Shown here piece by piece: positions 24,601 through 63,330 of a stretch of 64,000 nucleotides of DNA. A program made the position numbers and the translations under genes. Every line of letters starts with the position of its first letter. The stretch's first letter is position 1. Origin of the DNA: Haloferax mucosum ATCC BAA-1512 (GTDB taxonomy: Archaea > Halobacteriota > Halobacteria > Halobacteriales > Haloferacaceae); contig NZ_AOLN01000004.1 of assembly GCF_000337815.1 (NCBI RefSeq), forward strand, positions 1 through 64,000. The letters are read 5' to 3'. The notes under the pieces are model-generated. The model saw nothing but the letters and a program-made list of their open reading frames with translations. It was not told where the DNA came from and made no database searches.

Positions 24601-24655
24601 GGTGAGGTGAGGTGAGGTGAGGTGAGGTGAGGTGAGGTGAGGTGAGGTGAGGTGA
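24601..24655. repeat. Pentanucleotide tandem repeat (GGTGA)x11
   Basis: Eleven perfect tandem copies of GGTGA (55 bp) lie in the 221-bp gap between the znuA start and the DUF2306 stop, 148-202 bases upstream of znuA. Perfect 5-bp units are prone to slippage. The motif is outside the compact promoter described, so an effect on expression is unknown. Confidence 0.95.
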
Positions 24656-38595: not shown

Positions 38596-40338
38596 ATGAA
38601 CGACTCACCGCTCGATAGCCTCGACGCGAGAGCGATTGCATTCGCGTATCTCGTCTTTGGGGTCTGCGGGATATTCGGCGGTGAGGCACTCCTCTGGCTC
38701 GGTTTCGGAATTCCGGTGTCGCCGACGCTCGCGCTCGTGAAGGGACTCGCGTTGGTGGTCATTTCGAGCGCGTTCGTGGGGGGTCTTGTGGCGTGGAAAA
38801 ACAAGCGAATCAACCGCCAACAGAGATCAGTTCGGTCGTCGTTGAATCAACTGCGGAGCGTCCTCGACGCGTCACCGGTTGCAATACTCGCAGTGACGCC
38901 GGATGGTCGGGTGACGCGCTGGAACGAAGCCGCCTCCGAGACGTTCGGCTGGGACCAACAGGAAGTCATCGGCGAGTTCCTCCCGACTATCGCCGACGAC
39001 CGACGGTTCGAAGTCATCTCGCTCATCGAGCGGTCGATTACAGCGGACGGACTGTCCAACTACCCGGTCGAGCGTCAGCGCAAAGACGGTGAAATTCGGG
39101 AGTTTCGTCTCTCGACAGCGGTGGTCAGGGATGCCGATGGCGAGGCGTCGGAGGTCATCGGCGCCTTCGTCGATGTGACGGAACAAAAACAGCGGGAGCG
39201 TCGGCTTCGGGAGTTCGAGATGGCCGTCGAGCAGGCTGGACACGCGATTTATCTCACCAAGTCGGACGGAGAGATTACGTACGTAAACCCGGCGTTCGAG
39301 GCCATAACTGGCTACGAACGAGACGAGGCGGTCGGCAAAACGCCGGCAATACTCAACTCGGGCGAGATGGACGAAGCGTACTACGAGGAACTGTGGGAAA
39401 CCATCGAGACCGGTTCGACGTGGCAAGAACAGATTACCGACCAGCGGAAGAGCGGCGAGTTGTACACGGCTATTCAAACTATCGCGTCGATAACGGAAGG
39501 CGACGAAGTGCTCGGCTACGTCGCAATCCAATCAGACATCACCGAGTCAGTGCTCACCCGACAGCGACTCGGCGTATTGAATCGAATGTTACGCCACAAC
39601 CTCCGAAATAGGGTGAACGTCATCGAGGGGTACGCCGCAGTCATTCGGTCCGATGCGACCGATGAATCACTCATTGCCGCGGCGGACAACATTCTCAGCG
39701 CGTCGGCAGAGTTGGCCATAGTCGCCGACAAAGCACAGACGGTTGCAGACCTTCTCGAATCGGAGGGGACGGCTCGAAGAGTCACAGACATGGTCGCGGT
39801 CAGCGTAGACCACGCCGAATCCCAGTATCCCGATGCGACGGTGAGTTCGACCGTCGAGTCGGAGTGTTCGAGAGTCGTCGATAACCGTCTCCGCGTCGCC
39901 ATCGACGAACTAGTCTCGAACGCGCTCGAACACGGCGGCGGGACGGTCCATATCGACGTCTTCCCGAGTTCGACCGACAGCACCAAACTCGTCGTTCGAG
40001 TGAGCGACGACGGTCCCGGACTCCCCCAGACAGAGTGGGAGGTTATCGAGCGCGGCGAAGAAACGCCGCTCGAACACGGAACCGGCATGGGCCTGTGGCT
40101 CGTAAACTGGGTCGTCACCAAGGTAGGCGGGAGTATGGCTCTCGAATCGTCGCATCTCGGCGGGGCGACCGTCGTCCTCGAAGTCCCTATTGTTGGTCCG
40201 GAAACGTTTGGTTCGCCGAAGAGTTCGGACGATTCTGGCGATTCAGGCGGGTCGAACGAGACAGACGATTCTGAGAGTTCAGACAGTACAGACGTGTCAA
40301 ACGGTTCGGAACCCTCGGAATCGCCGTCTGGCAGGTGA
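38596..40338 (+). CDS. Membrane-anchored PAS/PAS histidine kinase
   Basis: 580 aa. Two N-terminal membrane helices (about 12-33 and 45-66) precede PAS domain 1 (about 85-195) and PAS domain 2 (about 205-325). The phosphoacceptor region RMLRHNLRNRVNVIEG is the haloarchaeal HisKA form, with the catalytic domain bearing DELVSNALEHGGG, DDGPGLP and GTGMGLWLVNW. A low-complexity Ser/Asp/Glu tail (about 535-580) ends the chain. No response regulator is adjacent, as is usual for haloarchaeal kinases. The start at 38596 is the only ATG before the first helix. Confidence 0.92.
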   Translation: MNDSPLDSLDARAIAFAYLVFGVCGIFGGEALLWLGFGIPVSPTLALVKGLALVVISSAFVGGLVAWKNKRINRQQRSVRSSLNQLRSVLDASPVAILAVTPDGRVTRWNEAASETFGWDQQEVIGEFLPTIADDRRFEVISLIERSITADGLSNYPVERQRKDGEIREFRLSTAVVRDADGEASEVIGAFVDVTEQKQRERRLREFEMAVEQAGHAIYLTKSDGEITYVNPAFEAITGYERDEAVGKTPAILNSGEMDEAYYEELWETIETGSTWQEQITDQRKSGELYTAIQTIASITEGDEVLGYVAIQSDITESVLTRQRLGVLNRMLRHNLRNRVNVIEGYAAVIRSDATDESLIAAADNILSASAELAIVADKAQTVADLLESEGTARRVTDMVAVSVDHAESQYPDATVSSTVESECSRVVDNRLRVAIDELVSNALEHGGGTVHIDVFPSSTDSTKLVVRVSDDGPGLPQTEWEVIERGEETPLEHGTGMGLWLVNWVVTKVGGSMALESSHLGGATVVLEVPIVGPETFGSPKSSDDSGDSGGSNETDDSESSDSTDVSNGSEPSESPSGR

Positions 40339-40348
40339 CTCACCCGGC

Positions 40349-40370
40349 ACCGCGGTGTTTGCGCCGCGGT
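40349..40370. terminator. GC inverted repeat between convergent genes
   Basis: ACCGCGG, an 8-nt loop, and CCGCGGT form a 7-bp stem located between the stop of the kinase (40338) and that of the VOC gene (40370). No T-tract follows on either strand, so its role in termination is uncertain. Confidence 0.4.
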
Positions 40371-40789
40371 CAGGCGTCGAGGAGTTCGACGAGGTTCCCT
40401 TCGGGGTCGCGGACGAACACGATTCGCGTCCCGCTCGCCGTCGTCCGTGGCTCGCTGAGTGTCTCGACGCCCGGCGGGAACTCGTCGATGACGGCGTCCA
40501 CATCGGGAACCGAGAGTCCGAGATGCGTCGCACCGGGTTGGTTGAGCGTCGAGTCCGGTCGGTCGTCGCCGACAGGGTTGTATTCGACGAGTTCGACGCG
40601 AACGTCGCCAGCGTCGAGGTGGGCGAAGCGACCCGTCGCGTCTGCAACATCGACGGCCGCGGCGAACGCCTCGCCGCCCACCTCGAATCGGTCGATGACC
40701 GAAAAGCCGAGGACGTCGCGGTAGAACTCGACCATCGGTTCGAGGTTTCGGACGGTGATACCGACGTGATGTGCGCTGAGCGAAGTCAC
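40370..40789 (-). CDS. VOC (glyoxalase/dioxygenase) superfamily protein
   Basis: 139 aa from a GTG at 40789 (VTSLSAHHVGITVRNLEPMVEFYRDVLGF), the normal VOC start; the longer frame upstream is not conserved-looking. The pattern HHVGITVRNLE ... HLGLSVPDVDAVIDEF ... IVFVRDPEGNLVELLD is typical of a two-beta-alpha-beta-beta-beta metal-binding fold, with candidate metal ligands His in HHVGI, His in HLGLS and Glu in VELLD. Substrate unknown. The GTG start is unusual but well supported. Confidence 0.82.
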   Translation of the reverse strand: MTSLSAHHVGITVRNLEPMVEFYRDVLGFSVIDRFEVGGEAFAAAVDVADATGRFAHLDAGDVRVELVEYNPVGDDRPDSTLNQPGATHLGLSVPDVDAVIDEFPPGVETLSEPRTTASGTRIVFVRDPEGNLVELLDA

Positions 40790-46484: not shown

Positions 46485-47729
46485 TTAGACGAAGTCGTCG
46501 AGCGTGCTCGTTTTCTCTCCGTCGAGGAACGGTTCGACCGTCTCGTGGACGCCGACGAGTTCGATTGTATCGCGCATCGCCGAGATGATGAGACTCACGT
46601 CCATATCAAGTGCGTATTCGCGGTACGTACCACCGCGGCGGCCCTCGTTGCGTTCCGTGACCGAGACGATACCGAGCATCGCAAGTTCGCTCAAGTGGTC
46701 TCGCATCCGACGCGGGACGAGCGGGTCGCGGTTGGCGAGTTCGGTAAACCTCGTGTATCGCGGTCGGACGTCGCGCGACCGAATTGGGGTCTCGTCTTCT
46801 AATTCGAGCGTTAGTAGCGAATAGAGTACCAAGTGTCCGTGCTCTGTTAACCCATTGATACCCTCTTTGATTCGACCGCGTTCGAGCGCGCGGCGACCGC
46901 GTTTGACGTGCGCTTCTTGGATACAGTCAGTGTCGTCGTCGCGGGCCAAATCGCCGGCTTTCATCAGCAGGTCGATAGACTGTCGGGCGTCACCAGCGTC
47001 TTTCGCGCCGTAAGCGGCACACAGCGGAATTACCTCGTCGGCGAGGACACCGTCCCGGAATGCAACGGTGGCCCGTTGTTCCAGAATCGCGCGAAGGTTC
47101 TTGGCATTGTACGCCGGGAAGTGAATTTCCTGTTCACACAGCGAACTTTTGACTTTCGGCGAGAGGTCGTCGCGGAACGAGAAGTCGTTCGAGATACCGA
47201 TGAGACCGACTTTGGCGACGTCTAAGTTTCCATTCGCGCGTGCGCGTGGGAGTTGATAAAGAATGCTGTCGTCGTTGACGTGGTCGATTTCGTCGAGCAC
47301 GATAATGATGGTTCCACCACAGTCGTCGAGTTCCTGCCACAGCATCTCGTAAACGGATCCGAGCGGGTACCCTGTCGTGCTGATTTGGTTCGATTCGGAC
47401 CGGAATTCGTTGACGAGACGAGTAGCAATCTGATACGAACTCGTGAGTCCATCACAGTTCAAAAAGACGACCGTGAGGTGAATGTCGTCGTAGTGACTCG
47501 CATCCTCACGAAGGTGGCCGAGCAAGTACCGTGACGCCGCGGTTTTCCCGACACCAGTCTTACCGTAGAGGAAGATATTGTTCGGCTGTTCTCCATTGAT
47601 AACCGGTTGGAGTGCTGCCTGAAACGTACGGAGTTCCTCGTCGCGCCCCACGAGTTCCTCGGGTTGGTAGTCTTCACGAAGAGCGTCTCGATCCCGATAG
47701 ATTTCGGTATCGCGCTCGAATAGGGGCAT
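46485..47729 (-). CDS. cdc6: Orc1/Cdc6 origin-recognition ATPase
   Basis: 414 aa from the ATG at 47729 (MPLFERDTEIYRDRDALRE), a family-typical N-terminus; a GTG two codons upstream is also possible. The AAA+ core has Walker A GKTGVGKT (residues 56-63), Walker B IIIVLDEIDH (141-150), and sensor-1/ISNDFSF near 180. The C-terminal winged helix (about 325-400) recognises origin DNA. Flanked on both sides by origin-box-like repeats, it is the initiator for the origin described separately. Confidence 0.95.
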   Translation of the reverse strand: MPLFERDTEIYRDRDALREDYQPEELVGRDEELRTFQAALQPVINGEQPNNIFLYGKTGVGKTAASRYLLGHLREDASHYDDIHLTVVFLNCDGLTSSYQIATRLVNEFRSESNQISTTGYPLGSVYEMLWQELDDCGGTIIIVLDEIDHVNDDSILYQLPRARANGNLDVAKVGLIGISNDFSFRDDLSPKVKSSLCEQEIHFPAYNAKNLRAILEQRATVAFRDGVLADEVIPLCAAYGAKDAGDARQSIDLLMKAGDLARDDDTDCIQEAHVKRGRRALERGRIKEGINGLTEHGHLVLYSLLTLELEDETPIRSRDVRPRYTRFTELANRDPLVPRRMRDHLSELAMLGIVSVTERNEGRRGGTYREYALDMDVSLIISAMRDTIELVGVHETVEPFLDGEKTSTLDDFV

Positions 47730-47770
47730 ACCCACACGATTTGGTCACATCGTTCATAAAACCACCGCGT

Positions 47771-48568: not shown

Positions 48569-49232
<664 letters not shown>

Positions 49233-49240
<8 letters not shown>

Positions 49241-50060
49241 CGTCTCGGCCTCCGCGTTCGACAATTTCTGCGAGTTCGTCTAACCGATCGAGCATATCGT
49301 TCTCAGGGTCGTACTCTCGAAGTGTCTTCCCGTCACGCCACGCGCGGCTGAAGGCGATTCGGTGTCTAATTCCAGGCCCTTTCGATTCGGGGTCTTCGAA
49401 TAGGTCCGACTGCGCGAATCGTGGAATGAACTTCTGGAATGGCGACGATTCGAGGTCGCGGATGATTCGACGTTCTTCGTTATTTCCGGTGAGGTCGTTA
49501 GGGACGATTGCGAGAATGTCGAGATCGACCTCGCGTCGAATGGGTCCGATTTGTTGTTCGAACATCCGTTCGAAGCCGCTCACGCTGGGTTCGCTCATCA
49601 GCAGTGGAACGACGACGTTTCCGGTTCCGATGAGTGCCGCGTCGGAAAGCGGCCCGAGACTCGGCGGCGAGTCGATAACGATGTAGTCGTACGTCCCGTC
49701 GTCGAGTAGCGGATCAACGATGCGGCGGCGTACCCACAACACCCCGAACGTCGAGTTCCGAACGCGGTCTTCGATATCATCTAAATCGACGTGTGCGGGT
49801 AGGACGTCGAACCGCTCGCGGTCGTGGATGACCTCTCGCACGTCGATTGGGTCGTCGTCGGTCAACACGTCGCCGATGTTCGGGCTTGCCGACTCGTAGG
49901 CGTCTTTCAGTCCGACACCCTCAGTCGCGTTTCCCTGCTGGTCGAGGTCAACGAGGAGAACGTCGTTTTCTCGCGCCGCGAGTGCGTCCGCGAGATTGAT
50001 CGCAATCGTGGTCTTCCCGACGCCACCTTTCTGGAGCGAGACGCTCACTGCTCGTGACAT
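49233..50060 (-). CDS. ParA family ATPase (chromosome/plasmid partition)
   Basis: 275 aa. Deviant Walker A KGGVGKTT at residues 11-18, Walker A' DLDQQGN near 39, and Walker B IVIDSPPSLGPLSD near 118 are all intact. It starts at 50060 with a good ribosome site (GGGAGG nine bases upstream). It would segregate a replicon with the overlapping acidic partner. The AT-rich repeat region just upstream is a candidate centromere. Confidence 0.93.
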
Positions 50061-50084
50061 CTATCGGTCCTCCCATTGGGTGAA

Positions 50085-50640
50085 ACTTCCACAATTTCTG
50101 CAATGTGTAGAGTGTGTCAACTGTCTATCTGGCGCAAACCGTGTCTGTATTGCGGACTGCGTAGGCATTTGGAGGTTCGAAATCACCTTCTTCGCGTTGG
50201 TACATAATTGTATCCACGACTTTTGAACAGTTGGAGATGTTAGGACTGTTAGAGATGTCTACAAATTCTAAAATTTGCATAATTCTCAAAATTCGGACCA
50301 GTCCCACAACTATTTTGTCTCAATACGGGTGCTTGTCTGTGTTCCAACTGTGGACTCTGTCTCCTGTGCGCACTGCCTTCCATGTTTACAACCTCTGGAG
50401 TGTTCACACACCTTCTACAGTCTAAAAATTTCACAATTTCTGAACGTTCTACACAGTCAAGTTCCCGTCTGGCACCCCACATTCCACGATTCCCACATAG
50501 ATCAAAAATTGTAGAATTTTTCGCTGTCGGACCTTCGCTCGACCGCACGCACGGTAGAAAATTCTAAAATTTCTACAAATCCCGAAATCTGTGAATTGCT
50601 TACAACTCTTGAACATCTCTAAACCTCCGAAAATTTCTCA
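50085..50640. repeat. AT-rich repeat region upstream of parA (candidate centromere)
   Basis: Words related to AATTTCTACAAATTCTAAA recur at about 50091, 50258-50296, 50421-50440, 50501-50523, 50554-50576 and 50628. CAAATT-CTAA-AATTTG near 50262 and GTAGAAA-N9-TTTCTAC at 50554-50576 are inverted repeats. The region is far more AT-rich than its surroundings, lies in a 756-bp gene-free gap (50061-50816) and starts directly in front of parA. Small open frames here are not supported. Confidence 0.65.
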
Positions 50641-50769
50641 CACTGCTAGCTTTCTGCGACTTTCACACACTACACGCTCTTCACACGTTTTGGACACTCT
50701 CAGAAGTGTTGCCATCGCTGTATTCGCCAATCCCGAAACCCCGACGTTCACGGGTTATAACAAAAAGAT

Positions 50770-50788
50770 ACTGCGGACAGAGTGGTGT
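50770..50788 (-). repeat. Origin-box-like motif
   Basis: ACTGCGGACAGAGTGGTGT (plus strand), pointing left, 29 bases from the msrA stop and the rightmost copy. Confidence 0.75.
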
Positions 50789-50816
50789 TGTTGGGTCACC
50801 CCGTTCCGCCCTTCAA

Positions 50817-56793: not shown

Positions 56794-56858
56794 AAGCGGC
56801 CTCGAATCCGGTCGTTCGGCACGAGCCTCCAATTTACGAGGTTTCGATGCTTCCAAAC

Positions 56859-56910
56859 TCTCTCAAAATCTCACAATGTCTAGAATTTCTACAAATTCTA
56901 AATTTCTTGG
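56859..56910. repeat. Second copy of the AT-rich centromere-like motif
   Basis: TAGAATTT-CTAC-AAATTCTA (56881-56900) is a perfect 8-bp inverted repeat, and its word TCTACAAATTCTAAA (56888-56902) is identical to the one at 50258-50272. It lies between the winged-helix gene and the polysaccharide locus. Confidence 0.7.
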
Positions 56911-56970
56911 ACTTTTCACTATCTCCAAGATTCTGCCAATGCGGCGTCCTTCTTCTTGCGGACGCGGTCG

Positions 56971-58078: not shown

Positions 58079-59167
58079 TCATCGATGGAGAAGCCCCGAA
58101 ACCAACCGTGCTGGAAGGCTGTTTCCGCCCGCGTGGGCGAGTGATTCGAGCCGCGGGCCGAGCTGATTTTTGTACAGGTGTGCGACGGTTCTCACCGGAA
58201 GCGCGCCGTGTTCGATTTGGTAGAACGTGACGAGGTCTGGGTTGTACTTGCTCTTGTACTGGTTGAGCCGTCGGTTGTTGGCTCCGACGAGGTCGTATCG
58301 GGCCATCCCTCGTTGCATCCCGTCGCGCATGATTCGCCAGTCGAGGAGGTCGTTGATGTCCACGCCGAAGTCGTGTTCTGGACGGACGCCTCCGAGCCAC
58401 CGGTAGATGGTGCGACCGTACTGGAGCACGACGATTCCGCTCACGAACGACCCGTTGTAGCGAAACACATACGGCCTGACCTGTCCGTCCGGAAGCGAAT
58501 CGTACAGGTCGAGAACGAACTGTGGCGGCACGTCGAACTGCATGTCTTGTTCTTCGTATCGGTCTTTGACCAGCGTGAGAATGGTCCGAATGTCGTCCCG
58601 ATTGCCTTCTTCGATTTTCGGGATGATTTCTGCTCCGTCGCGGACGTTCCGCCGGGCACTTCGACTGAACGACATCAGCAGGTCGTCTTCACCGCGGGTC
58701 AAATCGACGTTGTAGGTGTACTTCGGGGAGACGTCGCACCCGCCCCACTGGAACGTTCGCATATCGGTGTAGTAGTCGCCGACGCGGACGTGCGTGTAGT
58801 TCGGCCCGATTTCTGAGTTCACCCACTCGGTACACCCCTCGATGAACCGATTTCGCCGGCGTTCGAACTTGCGCCGCTTGATATTCCCGGCGTCGAACAT
58901 GACCGGCCCGAGGTACGGAACGCCGATGTTCGGCGGCGGCGAGAACGCGGTTTTGATCGGTCCCTTCCGAATCTCGAAGAGGGGAAACAACCCGACCGGC
59001 TCTTCGGTTTTGAACCCGACGAGCAGGTGTAGCTTCGCATTCGAGTACTTCGCTTGCAGTTCGAGAGCGTCGTACTGGTGAAAGAGACTCGCCTGACACG
59101 ATTGCTCGACGTAACGGTCCCATTCATCGCGGCGGCCCGGGTCGAATTCGGTGATTTTGATGGTCAT
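58079..59167 (-). CDS. FemAB-like GNAT acyltransferase, second copy
   Basis: 362 aa, paralogous to the next gene downstream. Motifs match in order: SPPPNIGVPYLGPVMF near 75, FSRSARRNVRDGAEI near 172, VFRYNGSFVSGIVVLQYGRTIYRWLGGVRP near 245, and RYDLVGANNRRLNQYKSKYNPDLVTFYQIE near 300. The two genes run in the same direction with 70 bp between them, so they arose by tandem duplication and are probably co-transcribed. Substrate unknown. Confidence 0.8.
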   Translation of the reverse strand: MTIKITEFDPGRRDEWDRYVEQSCQASLFHQYDALELQAKYSNAKLHLLVGFKTEEPVGLFPLFEIRKGPIKTAFSPPPNIGVPYLGPVMFDAGNIKRRKFERRRNRFIEGCTEWVNSEIGPNYTHVRVGDYYTDMRTFQWGGCDVSPKYTYNVDLTRGEDDLLMSFSRSARRNVRDGAEIIPKIEEGNRDDIRTILTLVKDRYEEQDMQFDVPPQFVLDLYDSLPDGQVRPYVFRYNGSFVSGIVVLQYGRTIYRWLGGVRPEHDFGVDINDLLDWRIMRDGMQRGMARYDLVGANNRRLNQYKSKYNPDLVTFYQIEHGALPVRTVAHLYKNQLGPRLESLAHAGGNSLPARLVSGLLHR

Positions 59168-59407
59168 GGCCGGCGGATGAGCGAGCGCCCCGGTAGCGAG
59201 GGTGTGGTTGATAACTCCTGCGTGCGGCCGGAGCGTCCAGTCGCTCCGAGCGTCCCTGCGCTGTCAGCCGATTCGGGATGGAGTCCGTACCACGATTGGG
59301 CTTTCCCAACCGGTGTCATCTCGGAAGGCATTCTCGGACTAACGTGATGCTCGGCCGGAGATTTGTTATGTAGCGACTATACGATGTCTCGACCCGCGTT
59401 CCGGTTT

Positions 59408-60709
59408 TCAGGGGGTCTCTGCGCGCGTCCGCAGGCTGTCGATTCCGTAGCCGTGGGTCGGCTCACCGACGAGTCTCGTGGCGACGTACTCGGCAATCGC
59501 GTACGCCATCCACGCTTGACACCAGCGCATGAGCGTCATGCGCTTCGTGTAGAACCGGTGTTTTCGGAAGTAAAACCGCCCCTCGTCCGGTTCGTACATG
59601 TTCGCTAGCGCCCAGTCGAGTGCGCGTTCTGCCCTGTCGTACTGCCCGGCGTAGGTGAACACGAGAATTCCCTGTGCGGTTGCGTGAATGTCCCGTGGGT
59701 AGGCGTTTTCCTCGTCGAAGTTGGGCGCGCCGTCGCCGTCGAACAACTCCTGCGCGTAGAAGTCGAGTCCCCGCGCAGTCGTCTCGTCGTATCGGCCGCT
59801 ACCCACGAGTTGTTCGTAGCGCTGGAAGCACTCGACGATGAACCCGTTGTGATGGTTGTCCATCGAGAGGTGCGACGCGCTCCGTGGCTCGCGGTAGTAC
59901 CACCCGCCGCAGTCGGTCTGTTTCGCCGCCACGAAGTCGTACACTTTTTCGGCGCGTTCGAGGAGTTCCTCGTCGCCGAAGTGGTCGTACAACTCGACGA
60001 AGAGTCTCGCACCGATTGCCAGCGCGTTGAGCGTGTAGCTGTCTTTGGGATGTGAGAGGTAGTAATCCATGACCGCACCGTCGTCTTTCAGCCGGTAGTT
60101 CAGGTCTTCCAGCATCACATCGACGGCAGTCTTGGCGATGTCCGGATAGTCCGGGTCAAACTCGCGTCCGGCGAGAAGTGCCTTGACACCGTAGGACGTC
60201 GAGACGACGTTCGGCGAGTGCGGAATCCCCGAGCGCGGGCCGTTGCGCCCGGAGATGTGTTGAATGACGTGTCGGTGGCTTCCGGCGAAGCCGCTGTATC
60301 CTTTCGCTTGGTTCGCCACGAGCCATTCGGTCAGTGACGCCGCGTCGTCCAGATACGCCCGAGCGTCGTCGCCGCCGTCGAACCAGTTCGCCAACTGCGC
60401 GCGGGTTCGATTCGCCATGGCGAACAGCGAGATACCCTTGAAATTCCGCCGCTGTTCGACGAGAAATAGCGGGCGAACGTTGATTGGTGAGCGCTTGATG
60501 AACTCTTGGACCGCGAGGTTAAACCAGCGGTTGTCGATGGGAATCGACAGCAACACGCGACTGCTCATCCCGTCGCCGTAATCCCACCCTTTGTAATCTC
60601 GTTCGCGGGCGTATTCGAGCACGTCGTCGAGCACGTCTACGTACGTCCGGAGATGTTCGATATCGACGCGCTCGTCGGATTCGTAGGCGTGTTTCGGTGA
60701 TGTGGTCAT
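59408..60709 (-). CDS. Alpha/alpha-toroid (six-hairpin) glycan-locus protein
   Basis: 433 aa from the ATG at 60709 (MTTSPKHAYESDERVDIEHLRTYVDVLDD). The frame stays open far upstream but that part is the phased repeat, not protein-like. Repeated amphipathic helix pairs with conserved Gly-Trp or Tyr turns (SYTLNALAIGARLFVELYDHFGDEELLERAEKVYDFVAAKQTDCGGWYYREPRS) and HHNGFIVECFQRYEQL suggest a six-hairpin glycosidase or epimerase fold. It probably trims or epimerises an oligosaccharide intermediate. Exact activity unknown. Confidence 0.7.
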   Translation of the reverse strand: MTTSPKHAYESDERVDIEHLRTYVDVLDDVLEYARERDYKGWDYGDGMSSRVLLSIPIDNRWFNLAVQEFIKRSPINVRPLFLVEQRRNFKGISLFAMANRTRAQLANWFDGGDDARAYLDDAASLTEWLVANQAKGYSGFAGSHRHVIQHISGRNGPRSGIPHSPNVVSTSYGVKALLAGREFDPDYPDIAKTAVDVMLEDLNYRLKDDGAVMDYYLSHPKDSYTLNALAIGARLFVELYDHFGDEELLERAEKVYDFVAAKQTDCGGWYYREPRSASHLSMDNHHNGFIVECFQRYEQLVGSGRYDETTARGLDFYAQELFDGDGAPNFDEENAYPRDIHATAQGILVFTYAGQYDRAERALDWALANMYEPDEGRFYFRKHRFYTKRMTLMRWCQAWMAYAIAEYVATRLVGEPTHGYGIDSLRTRAETP

Positions 60710-60832
60710 GATGTAGAATGGCCTCTCTGAGGGGGCTGACTGCCCGAGGGAAAGCCCGCGTCGGGCTTTGTTATACGTCGAATACCACCGGACCGACCCG
60801 GGAACGACCCGACCGAATCGCCGCACCGGCGC

Positions 60833-61237
60833 GTGAAAGTCGTGAGCTGTGTGAGTGATACGACGACGGTGAGAGCCGTGAGGTACGTGAGCCAACTGAG
60901 CGGCGTGAATTGGGTGTCTCAGATACAAACGCTGTGTGGGGTGAACGGGGTGGGGCGGGTGTGGACACTGAAAGAACTGACCGTCATGACCAGACTGAAA
61001 AGACCGAGTAACGTGACCGGACTGACCTAATTGACCGGGCTGAACTGGCTGACAAAACTGAACTGAGTGACTGGACTGAATTCCCTGACCGGACTGACCG
61101 AACCGAGTAGCCTGAACAGCCTGTCTGAGCTGAATCGCATGGATAGACTGAGTAGGCTGACCGAACTGAAACGGGTGACAAAGTCGAGAGCGATGAACTG
61201 GATGACTCAGATGAAAACCGTGAGTAGACTGAGTAGG
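60833..61237. repeat. Forty-five degenerate 9-nt units in perfect phase
   Basis: From 60833 to 61237 the plus strand divides into 45 consecutive 9-nt units without a single insertion or deletion; 34 units begin with any base followed by TGA (for example GTGAAAGTC, CTGAACTGG, CTGACCGGA). The remaining positions vary widely. All three minus frames and some plus frames are open for long stretches, but a TAA and TGA break the plus frame in which every third codon is Val/Leu. It fills most of the gap between the toroid and deacetylase genes (60710-61288). Confidence 0.85.
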
Positions 61238-61288
61238 ACGCATCTACCGTGTCGTCGGGGAGACGTCGGTGACGTGACCGACCGCGAC

Positions 61289-62206
61289 TCACTCGGCTTC
61301 GTGTTCCGACTGTACGGTCTCACGAGTCCGCCCGGTTCGAGTCGCCTCCGAACCTCCATCATCGAGGAACTCGCGGTAGTAGTCGCCGACGGGACCGACC
61401 CACGCCCCTCGGTCGAGCGCCCACGCGACGACTTCCCGATAGAGCCGCCGGTAGCCGGGGAATTCGTCGTCGTTGAAATATCGCGGGTGCCACAACACAG
61501 TCATCACCGCGTCGTTCGCTTCGGCTTCGACGAGTAACTGTTCGCACTCGGCCCACGCCGATTCGAACGACCTGCCGGGGTCAGGAAGCGAGACTTCCAT
61601 CAGCGTCAGCGGGAACACGACGAACTCGTCGTCGAACGGCCGAAACGGTCGGTAGCCGTGTTGGAAGCCGTGTGTCGAACTCGACCCCGGACTGGCATCG
61701 TACTTCAGCCCGAGTTCCCTATGATACTGCCACGTTCGGGGACCGAGTTTGAGGTGGTGCTGTCGCCCGCCGAGGATGTCGCGGCCGAGTACCGATTCGA
61801 GTTCCCGCTTTTCGGTTCGCAGGCGGTCGAAATCGTCACACGACCTGAACGACCCGTGGATGCCGACCTCCCAACCGCCGTCGTCGAGCGCGTGGATAAC
61901 TTCGGTTATCGCTTCCGCCTCGATGTCGTACCGACCGAGGTGTTCGATCCAGTTTTTCGGGTCGAACCAGTCAGCAAGAGTCCCCGTTCGGAGGAGACTC
62001 GGCTCGTTGAGGAAATAGAACGACGACCTGACCCCGAGGTCGCGTTCGAGCGCCATGATGTCCTCGAACTGCCAGTAGGGGTTTTCGCGGCCGAGGAGCG
62101 TCCGAAGGTGGTAGCCCGGATTCGACTGCAACGCGTAGAACAGCCCTTGATAGGTCTTGTACGGGCGGTCCACGTCGTGGGTCAGGCAGAGTGCGAACTC
62201 ACTCAT
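61289..62206 (-). CDS. Polysaccharide deacetylase (NodB-like)
   Basis: 305 aa from the ATG at 62206 (MSEFALCLTHDVDRPYKTYQGLFYAL). The first catalytic motif THDVD holds the Asp pair; GIHGSFRSCDDFDRL near 130 and VLWHPRYFNDDEFPGYRRLYRE near 245 supply the later His and metal ligands of the family. It would remove N-acetyl groups from a GlcNAc-type surface glycan. It is encoded between wecB and the toroid gene on the same strand. Confidence 0.85.
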   Translation of the reverse strand: MSEFALCLTHDVDRPYKTYQGLFYALQSNPGYHLRTLLGRENPYWQFEDIMALERDLGVRSSFYFLNEPSLLRTGTLADWFDPKNWIEHLGRYDIEAEAITEVIHALDDGGWEVGIHGSFRSCDDFDRLRTEKRELESVLGRDILGGRQHHLKLGPRTWQYHRELGLKYDASPGSSSTHGFQHGYRPFRPFDDEFVVFPLTLMEVSLPDPGRSFESAWAECEQLLVEAEANDAVMTVLWHPRYFNDDEFPGYRRLYREVVAWALDRGAWVGPVGDYYREFLDDGGSEATRTGRTRETVQSEHEAE

Positions 62207-62238
62207 CGTCGCCCCCGAACCCGTCTGTCGTGACCCAC

Positions 62239-63330
62239 TCACGCATCAGCGACTTCGACCTCCGAGAGCACGTCGGCGATTCGCTCCGCCGCGGTTCCCT
62301 CGCCGTAGAGAGACGGTTTCGACGGGAGCGGGTCGGTCGCGTGCAGTGCGGTTCGAATCGCGTCTCGGTCCGCGCCGACGAGGACGTTCCATCCGGAATC
62401 GACGGTCTCGGTCCACTCGGTTTCGTCGCGGAGCGTGACACAGCGCGTGTCGAGGTAGAACGCCTCTTTTTGCACGCCGCCGGAATCGGTGACGACGCGT
62501 TCTGCGCCGTCGAGAAGTCTGACGAAGTCGAGATAGCCGACTGGCTCGACGAGGCGAACAGTTTCGTCCTCGGCGAGGCGCGACCAGAGACCGCTGTCGC
62601 GGAGCGCCTGCTCAGTTCGAGGGTGGACGGGGAAGACGACTGGTTTCGGCGCGTCAACGAGTCCATCGACGATTGCACTGAGTCGTGACCGGTCGTCGGT
62701 GTTCGCGGCCCGGTGAACCGTCGCTAAGACGAACTCGCCGTCGCTGAGGTCGTGGGCTTCGAGGACCGTCGAGCGCTCGCCGGCGGCCGACCGGACCCGA
62801 AGTACGGCGTCGTACTGCACATCGCCAGTCACGTAGACGCCGTCGTGAATCCCTTCGGACGCTAACGTCGTCGCGGCAGATTCCGAGGGGGCGAACAGGA
62901 GGTCCGCGCAGTGGTCGGTGAGAATCCGGTTTATCTCCTCGGGCATCGCCCGGTTGTAGCTTCGTAGCCCCGCCTCGACGTGCGCCAAACGCGGCGTGCG
63001 CTTCGAGGCGACGAGCGCCGCCGCGAGCGTCGAGTTCGTGTCGCCGTAGACGAGCACCACGTCGGGGGCTTCGTCGGCGACGACCGCGTCGAGTAGTTCC
63101 ATCATCTCGGCGGTCTGAGCGGCGTGCGGTCCCGACCCGACACCGAGGTTGTAATCGGGTTCCGGGATGTCGAGTTCGTCGAAGAACACGCCGGACAGCG
63201 ACTCGTCGTAGTGTTGTCCGGTGTGGACGAGCACTTCGTCGTGGTCGCGCCGAAGCGCGTCTGAGACCGGGAACGCCTTGATGAACTGCGGCCGCGCGCC
63301 GACGACAGAGAGTATCTTCAGCCCGCTCAT
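62239..63330 (-). CDS. wecB: UDP-N-acetylglucosamine 2-epimerase (non-hydrolysing)
   Basis: 363 aa from the ATG at 63330 (MSGLKILSVVGARPQFIKAFPVSDAL), the classical WecB start. Key motifs are HTGQHYDESLSGVFFDELDIPEPDYNL, EAGLRSYNRAMPEEINRILTDH and TDSGGVQKEAFYL. It converts UDP-GlcNAc to UDP-ManNAc. Its start overlaps the stop of the upstream dehydrogenase by four bases, so the two enzymes are translationally coupled and work in sequence. Confidence 0.95.
   Translation of the reverse strand: MSGLKILSVVGARPQFIKAFPVSDALRRDHDEVLVHTGQHYDESLSGVFFDELDIPEPDYNLGVGSGPHAAQTAEMMELLDAVVADEAPDVVLVYGDTNSTLAAALVASKRTPRLAHVEAGLRSYNRAMPEEINRILTDHCADLLFAPSESAATTLASEGIHDGVYVTGDVQYDAVLRVRSAAGERSTVLEAHDLSDGEFVLATVHRAANTDDRSRLSAIVDGLVDAPKPVVFPVHPRTEQALRDSGLWSRLAEDETVRLVEPVGYLDFVRLLDGAERVVTDSGGVQKEAFYLDTRCVTLRDETEWTETVDSGWNVLVGADRDAIRTALHATDPLPSKPSLYGEGTAAERIADVLSEVEVADA

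Follow-up and report, generated by a model that had tools for sequence, protein, structure and literature searches.

Phased arrays of degenerate 9-nt units beside haloarchaeal ParA modules and a candidate satellite array in Haloferax mucosum

Genes and repeat arrays of the locus

The region investigated here, referred to as the window, comprises positions 1–64,000 of the forward strand of contig NZ_AOLN01000004.1 from Haloferax mucosum ATCC BAA-1512. Near its end, an array of 45 contiguous 9-nt units (60833..61237, plus strand) with the consensus STGAVNNRR, exemplified by CTGACCGGA, is located between two genes on the minus strand. These are the toroid gene (59408..60709, protein start MTTSPKHAYES), in whose upstream gap the array sits, and a polysaccharide deacetylase-type gene (61289..62242), the counterpart of which in syntenic Haloferax plasmids is named polysaccharide deacetylase family protein. 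The toroid leader just outside the array (60713–60790) contains a CCTCTC...GAGAGG inverted repeat and a promoter-like stretch of the TTTGTTAT type, and is conserved in Haloferax, including relatives without the array.

About 11 kb from the array, on the same 285-kb contig, the start of a ParA-family (AAA_31/Soj-like) partition ATPase was found at 50060 (49233..50060, minus strand; Pfam AAA_31, E = 1.5e-34). This protein also matched the PHROG ParA-like partition protein (E = 1.7e-44) and ParA/Soj relatives in PDB. The stop of the ParA gene is overlapped by the start of a gene for a putative centromere-binding partner (48569..49240, minus strand; start in the ORF list 49264), with an MPKENRFAGLG head, a long acidic linker and a conserved C-terminal domain. 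In the predicted model this domain (pLDDT 89.7) is composed of a short extended segment or coil and three helices. Neither PDB nor the viral library gave a significant match to this fold, and no Pfam family matched the protein, so DNA binding by the partner is putative. The Glu-Pro linker of the partner, which varies widely in length among relatives, is encoded by a TTCTGG tandem repeat at 48800–48866.

The Orc1/Cdc6 replication initiator of the replicon is encoded at 46485..47735 on the minus strand (TIGR02928, E = 1e-129). An ORB-like box, CTGCGGACAGAGTGGTGTT, is present at 50771..50789 on the plus strand, and 13 further ones between 41.5 and 48.5 kb bring the number near the module to 14. 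Judged from sequence, ParA, the partner, Orc1/Cdc6 and the ORB-like boxes together appear to form the replicon's replication and partition module.

Scanning the window for 9-nt periodicity revealed two more non-coding arrays, neither assigned to a strand, which the earlier note on this DNA had missed. The proximal array (50061..50770) fills the space between the ParA start and the ORB-like box at 50771, which closes it, and consists of degenerate TNYNNRMNK units (TGTACAATT, TCTACAAAT, TGTGGACTG). The second, a satellite array at 56833..56949 in the gap before the first GNAT gene, is made of the same class of units (TCTACAAAT; profile fit P <0.001). Elsewhere in the window, a 9-nt periodicity at 40165–40391 resembles a coding Ser/Asp-rich repeat and is distinct from the non-coding arrays, and the pentanucleotide GGTGA occurs in 11 perfect copies at 24601–24655.

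Structure of the 60833 array

From position 60833 the 9-mers run to 61237 as 45 phased units with 0 indels, as the earlier note had claimed, and the TGA core that it placed at unit positions 2–4 is present in 34/45 units. That the other six positions are near random is true in part: their information content is low (0.1–0.4 bits, versus 1.57, 1.85 and 1.16 bits for the T, G and A columns), but positions 1, 5, 8 and 9 are biased, with mostly C or G in position 1, almost never T in position 5 and a purine-rich composition in positions 8–9. Autocorrelation, proposed as a check, reached 0.50, 0.49, 0.52 and 0.53 at lags 9, 18, 27 and 36, and approximately 0.2–0.35 at other lags. By allowing at most two mismatches, the TGA-N6-TGA x5 chain was detected 35 times in the window, all within the tract, with 0.03 expected from shuffles, and a search of the genome (3.37 Mb) with a 6-unit TGA chain gave no hit outside the tract. 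Equal periodicity by chance in other intergenic regions had been named as an observation that would count against the tract; in the window minus the three arrays, the best trinucleotide reached 14/45 at one phase.

Among the 45 units, 43 are distinct. Adjacent units resemble each other no more than units far apart do (lag-1 P 0.24), and the one low value was obtained at lag 4 (P 0.01). There is therefore no sign of recent duplication, in agreement with the proposal that the tract did not arise by slippage followed by drift, and a slippage repeat was rejected on these two observations. A minisatellite, in which a 9-nt unit was amplified by slippage or recombination and later diverged, would account for tandem direct repeats that are lineage-specific, but the same lack of likeness between neighbours, the restriction of conservation to three columns and the complete absence of indels make this origin very unlikely.

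A constraint imposed by a reading frame, also suggested previously, did not hold. One minus frame, shared with the toroid gene, is open across the tract, which could then encode tripeptide repeats as an N-terminal extension of the toroid protein (minus frame 59408–61243) or as a separate peptide. This frame, however, has a GC3 of 0.45 versus 0.78 in the neighbouring toroid gene and would encode 2 acidic versus 30 basic or His residues, a composition unlike that of haloarchaeal proteins; the remaining minus frames are interrupted by stops, and relatives lack the tract between the toroid and deacetylase genes. On composition and absence in relatives the coding tract was ruled out as a candidate, and the probability left to it is minimal.

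The gap between the toroid and deacetylase genes measures 583 bp here versus 121–312 bp in related Haloferax loci. The comparison encompassed the same-genus genomes in which both genes could be located, plus named plasmids, and none of these relatives carries an array of the 60833 type in the gap. The existence of relatives without it indicates that the array is dispensable for this megaplasmid family.

Distribution of 9-nt arrays at ParA loci

In all of the 15 genus genomes examined, a 9-nt array closed by an ORB-like box was present directly upstream of ParA. In a family-wide set, period 9 was the strongest period upstream of ParA in 55/63 loci, while random 700-bp stretches, serving as the control, gave mixed periods and lower scores with a 95% point of 0.16. 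A separate order-wide draw contained period 9 with a score of at least 0.17 in 27/40 ParA loci, against the same control point. Period 9 was also found in 7/8 named plasmids, Haloferax mediterranei pHME505 and Halobacterium salinarum pNRC100 among them; the scores ran from a weak 0.14 up to 0.33. No 9-nt array was seen at several ParA loci that are GC-rich or chromosomal, and the exceptions also include more distant ParA relatives. Left out of the counts were distal periodic stretches in L081–L083 (about +11.8 to +12.0 kb), which resemble the C-terminal tails of coding sequences. L083 also displayed a GC-rich 9-nt periodic stretch of the CCGACCGTC type at +6762 to +6930 from the parA start, with no fit to the unit profile of its own genus, the sole profile compared.

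For the H. mucosum genome itself, the 64-kb window and 677 kb of sampled stretches were scanned, 741 kb in total or approximately 22% of the genome. Non-coding 9-nt arrays occurred there only beside two plasmid ParA genes, that of the window (C4) and C10. At a third plasmid ParA (C9) the 9-nt array is located inside the N-terminal coding part of the partner gene, and the other 9-nt periodic stretches of the sampled genome sit under long open frames. This C9 site lies at L112 7220–7639, and the partner protein matches the virus family phrog_29165 over its full length; in-gene arrays similar to this one were seen in L024 and L037.

This distribution bears on the suggestion that the 60833 tract is a protein or RNA scaffold. 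A search of 59000–62500 against Rfam gave no match and the RNA element is unsupported, whereas a protein-bound scaffold fits, because like arrays recur beside partition genes, and is favoured. The bound protein might be a sequence-specific regulator of the toroid gene or the polysaccharide operon that acts on transcription through cooperative occupation of the 9-bp boxes. Cooperative regulators typically bind boxes in tandem, as MetJ does its met boxes, and the conserved, promoter-like toroid leader lies about 60 bp downstream of the array. Yet relatives that lack the array have kept both the toroid gene and its leader, 405 bp with 45 boxes is far above the size of usual operators, and similar arrays elsewhere follow ParA genes and not the polysaccharide operon. 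We consider an operator array unlikely. A role in partition is the preferred reading, for which association with ParA is not in itself proof.

Unit specificity of the arrays

The unit was found to differ by ParA subgroup. It is TNYNNRMNK in this genus, CT[AG]AGGTAG in a subgroup that is 36–39% identical, AAATAATYT-like in the C10 system, and TATTCNTTC, CTATYTGNN and others in further subgroups. Three satellite arrays match the profile of their own system, namely window 56833 and L084 that of class A, and L145 that of class B. Fit was expressed as the score relative to column-permuted controls, and each of the three beat every control (P <0.001). The L084 satellite is located 14 kb from its parA. 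In L145, where the unit beside parA is GGTAGCTGA, 31 phased units of like sequence are found in an intergenic gap 9 kb away, and L145 is the closest structural parallel to the 60833 array.

The 60833 array does not share the unit of the window's own ParA (class A; profile fit P 0.79), whereas the 56833 array does. Neither was there any fit to the profiles of classes B, C and D (P 0.30, 0.11 and 0.19, respectively). When compared with 114 array segments, the highest log-odds was obtained for class B (CTGAGGTA-type) in L109, which was not significant after correction. A search of 392 genomes for STGAVNNRR chains, in which a few places were followed, led to long-open-frame repeats, to the class B satellite in L145 and to short runs without ParA nearby. 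Neither this search nor the 114 segments yielded a significant cognate system for STGAVNNRR across the order.

The array at 60833 thus belongs to the ParA-associated class by its form, being long, non-coding and strictly periodic at 9 with degenerate units, and by its position on the same replicon within about 15 kb of the parA/partner pair, other satellites being found at 6.7, 9 and 14 kb, while its unit falls outside the four tested profiles. The array may have been acquired, may be a relic, or may serve another partition protein as its site. Were it a relic from another plasmid that recombined with this one, it would be unread here, possibly with incompatibility as a side effect. In favour of this, the unit of the array is not that of the resident system but comes closest to class B, for which the H. 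mucosum genome yielded neither a ParA nor a partner, and the insertion is strain-specific among the strains examined. Long relaxed drift is difficult to reconcile, however, with a phase that is intact over 45 units, with TGA retained in 34 and with no indel, and no other plasmid genes arrived alongside the array. A relic is in our judgement quite unlikely.

Discussion

The interpretation that we tend towards, by a modest degree, is that the 60833 tract is a satellite member of a haloarchaeal class of centromere-like (parS-like) arrays of 9-bp boxes which accompany ParA modules. The broader proposition, for which we regard the case as evenly balanced, is that haloarchaeal plasmids and megaplasmids use an undescribed type of centromere. 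It would consist of long arrays of degenerate 9-bp boxes with a box particular to each ParA/partner subgroup, sometimes placed within the partner gene and with satellites some kilobases away, and the 60833 array would be a satellite of a further specificity.

The workings of such a centromere may be depicted as follows. The small dimeric partner encoded beside ParA would bind one 9-bp box per dimer, and by analogy with the heptads of pSM19035, dimers would sit side by side and fill the array cooperatively. Nucleoid-bound ParA-ATP would then capture and move the partner-coated patch, and the megaplasmid would by this movement be shared between daughter cells. Cooperative binding along the array, as we propose it, would explain a strictly maintained spacing of 9 alongside drift of single boxes. 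What the sequences show are the phased arrays, their association with ParA, the subgroup-specific units and the three cognate satellites; binding by the partner, its cooperativity and a role in segregation are inferred.

The array class touches on what has been openly posed as a question about the centromeres of archaea. Should the 9-bp arrays prove to be centromeres, many haloarchaeal megaplasmids, including those of laboratory organisms such as Haloferax and Halobacterium, would gain concrete candidate sites and partner proteins. The arrays would also constitute a natural set of protein-DNA specificity pairs, might underlie plasmid incompatibility, and may account for unannotated intergenic tracts beside plasmid parA genes. 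No haloarchaeal 9-bp centromere was found in the literature, in which subscription journals were thinly covered, and the class of ParA-associated 9-nt arrays is apparently undescribed in the searchable part.

Comparison with known partition systems

The AspA-ParB-ParA system of pNOB8 likewise serves partition of an archaeal plasmid, and one of its proteins coats the DNA starting at a site close to the system's genes (PMC5120986). It differs from the haloarchaeal arrangement in having three components and a single 23-bp palindromic motif in place of a long array (PMC5120986). SegAB of the Sulfolobales shares with the haloarchaeal modules an archaeal ParA ortholog with a site-specific partner, and sites both near the genes and in distant satellites (PMC12284271). 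SegB, however, is a confirmed ribbon-helix-helix protein, and its sites are separate 13-bp palindromes, TCTAGA-S-TCTAGA, with no long phased arrays (PMC12284271); the consensus STGAVNNRR contains no palindrome of the SegB type.

In pSM19035 (delta/omega), parS consists of contiguous 7-bp heptads, WATCACW, and activation of ParA requires at least 4 contiguous boxes (PMC9499535). The haloarchaeal arrays resemble this system in their contiguous, unspaced short boxes, in the presence of several sites per plasmid, in the location of boxes upstream of the par genes and in the pairing of a Walker ATPase, ParA, with a small partner; contiguity of the array is required for function in pSM19035 (PMC9499535). 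With 45 units and no indel, the 60833 array exceeds the at least 4 contiguous unspaced boxes of the pSM19035 type, but its period is 9 and not that of a heptad. The haloarchaeal partner has a long acidic linker and, unlike its pSM19035 counterpart, no confirmed ribbon-helix-helix fold, and the arrays differ from those of pSM19035 in being archaeal, in ranging from AT-rich to GC-rich and in comprising dozens of degenerate units versus 7–10.
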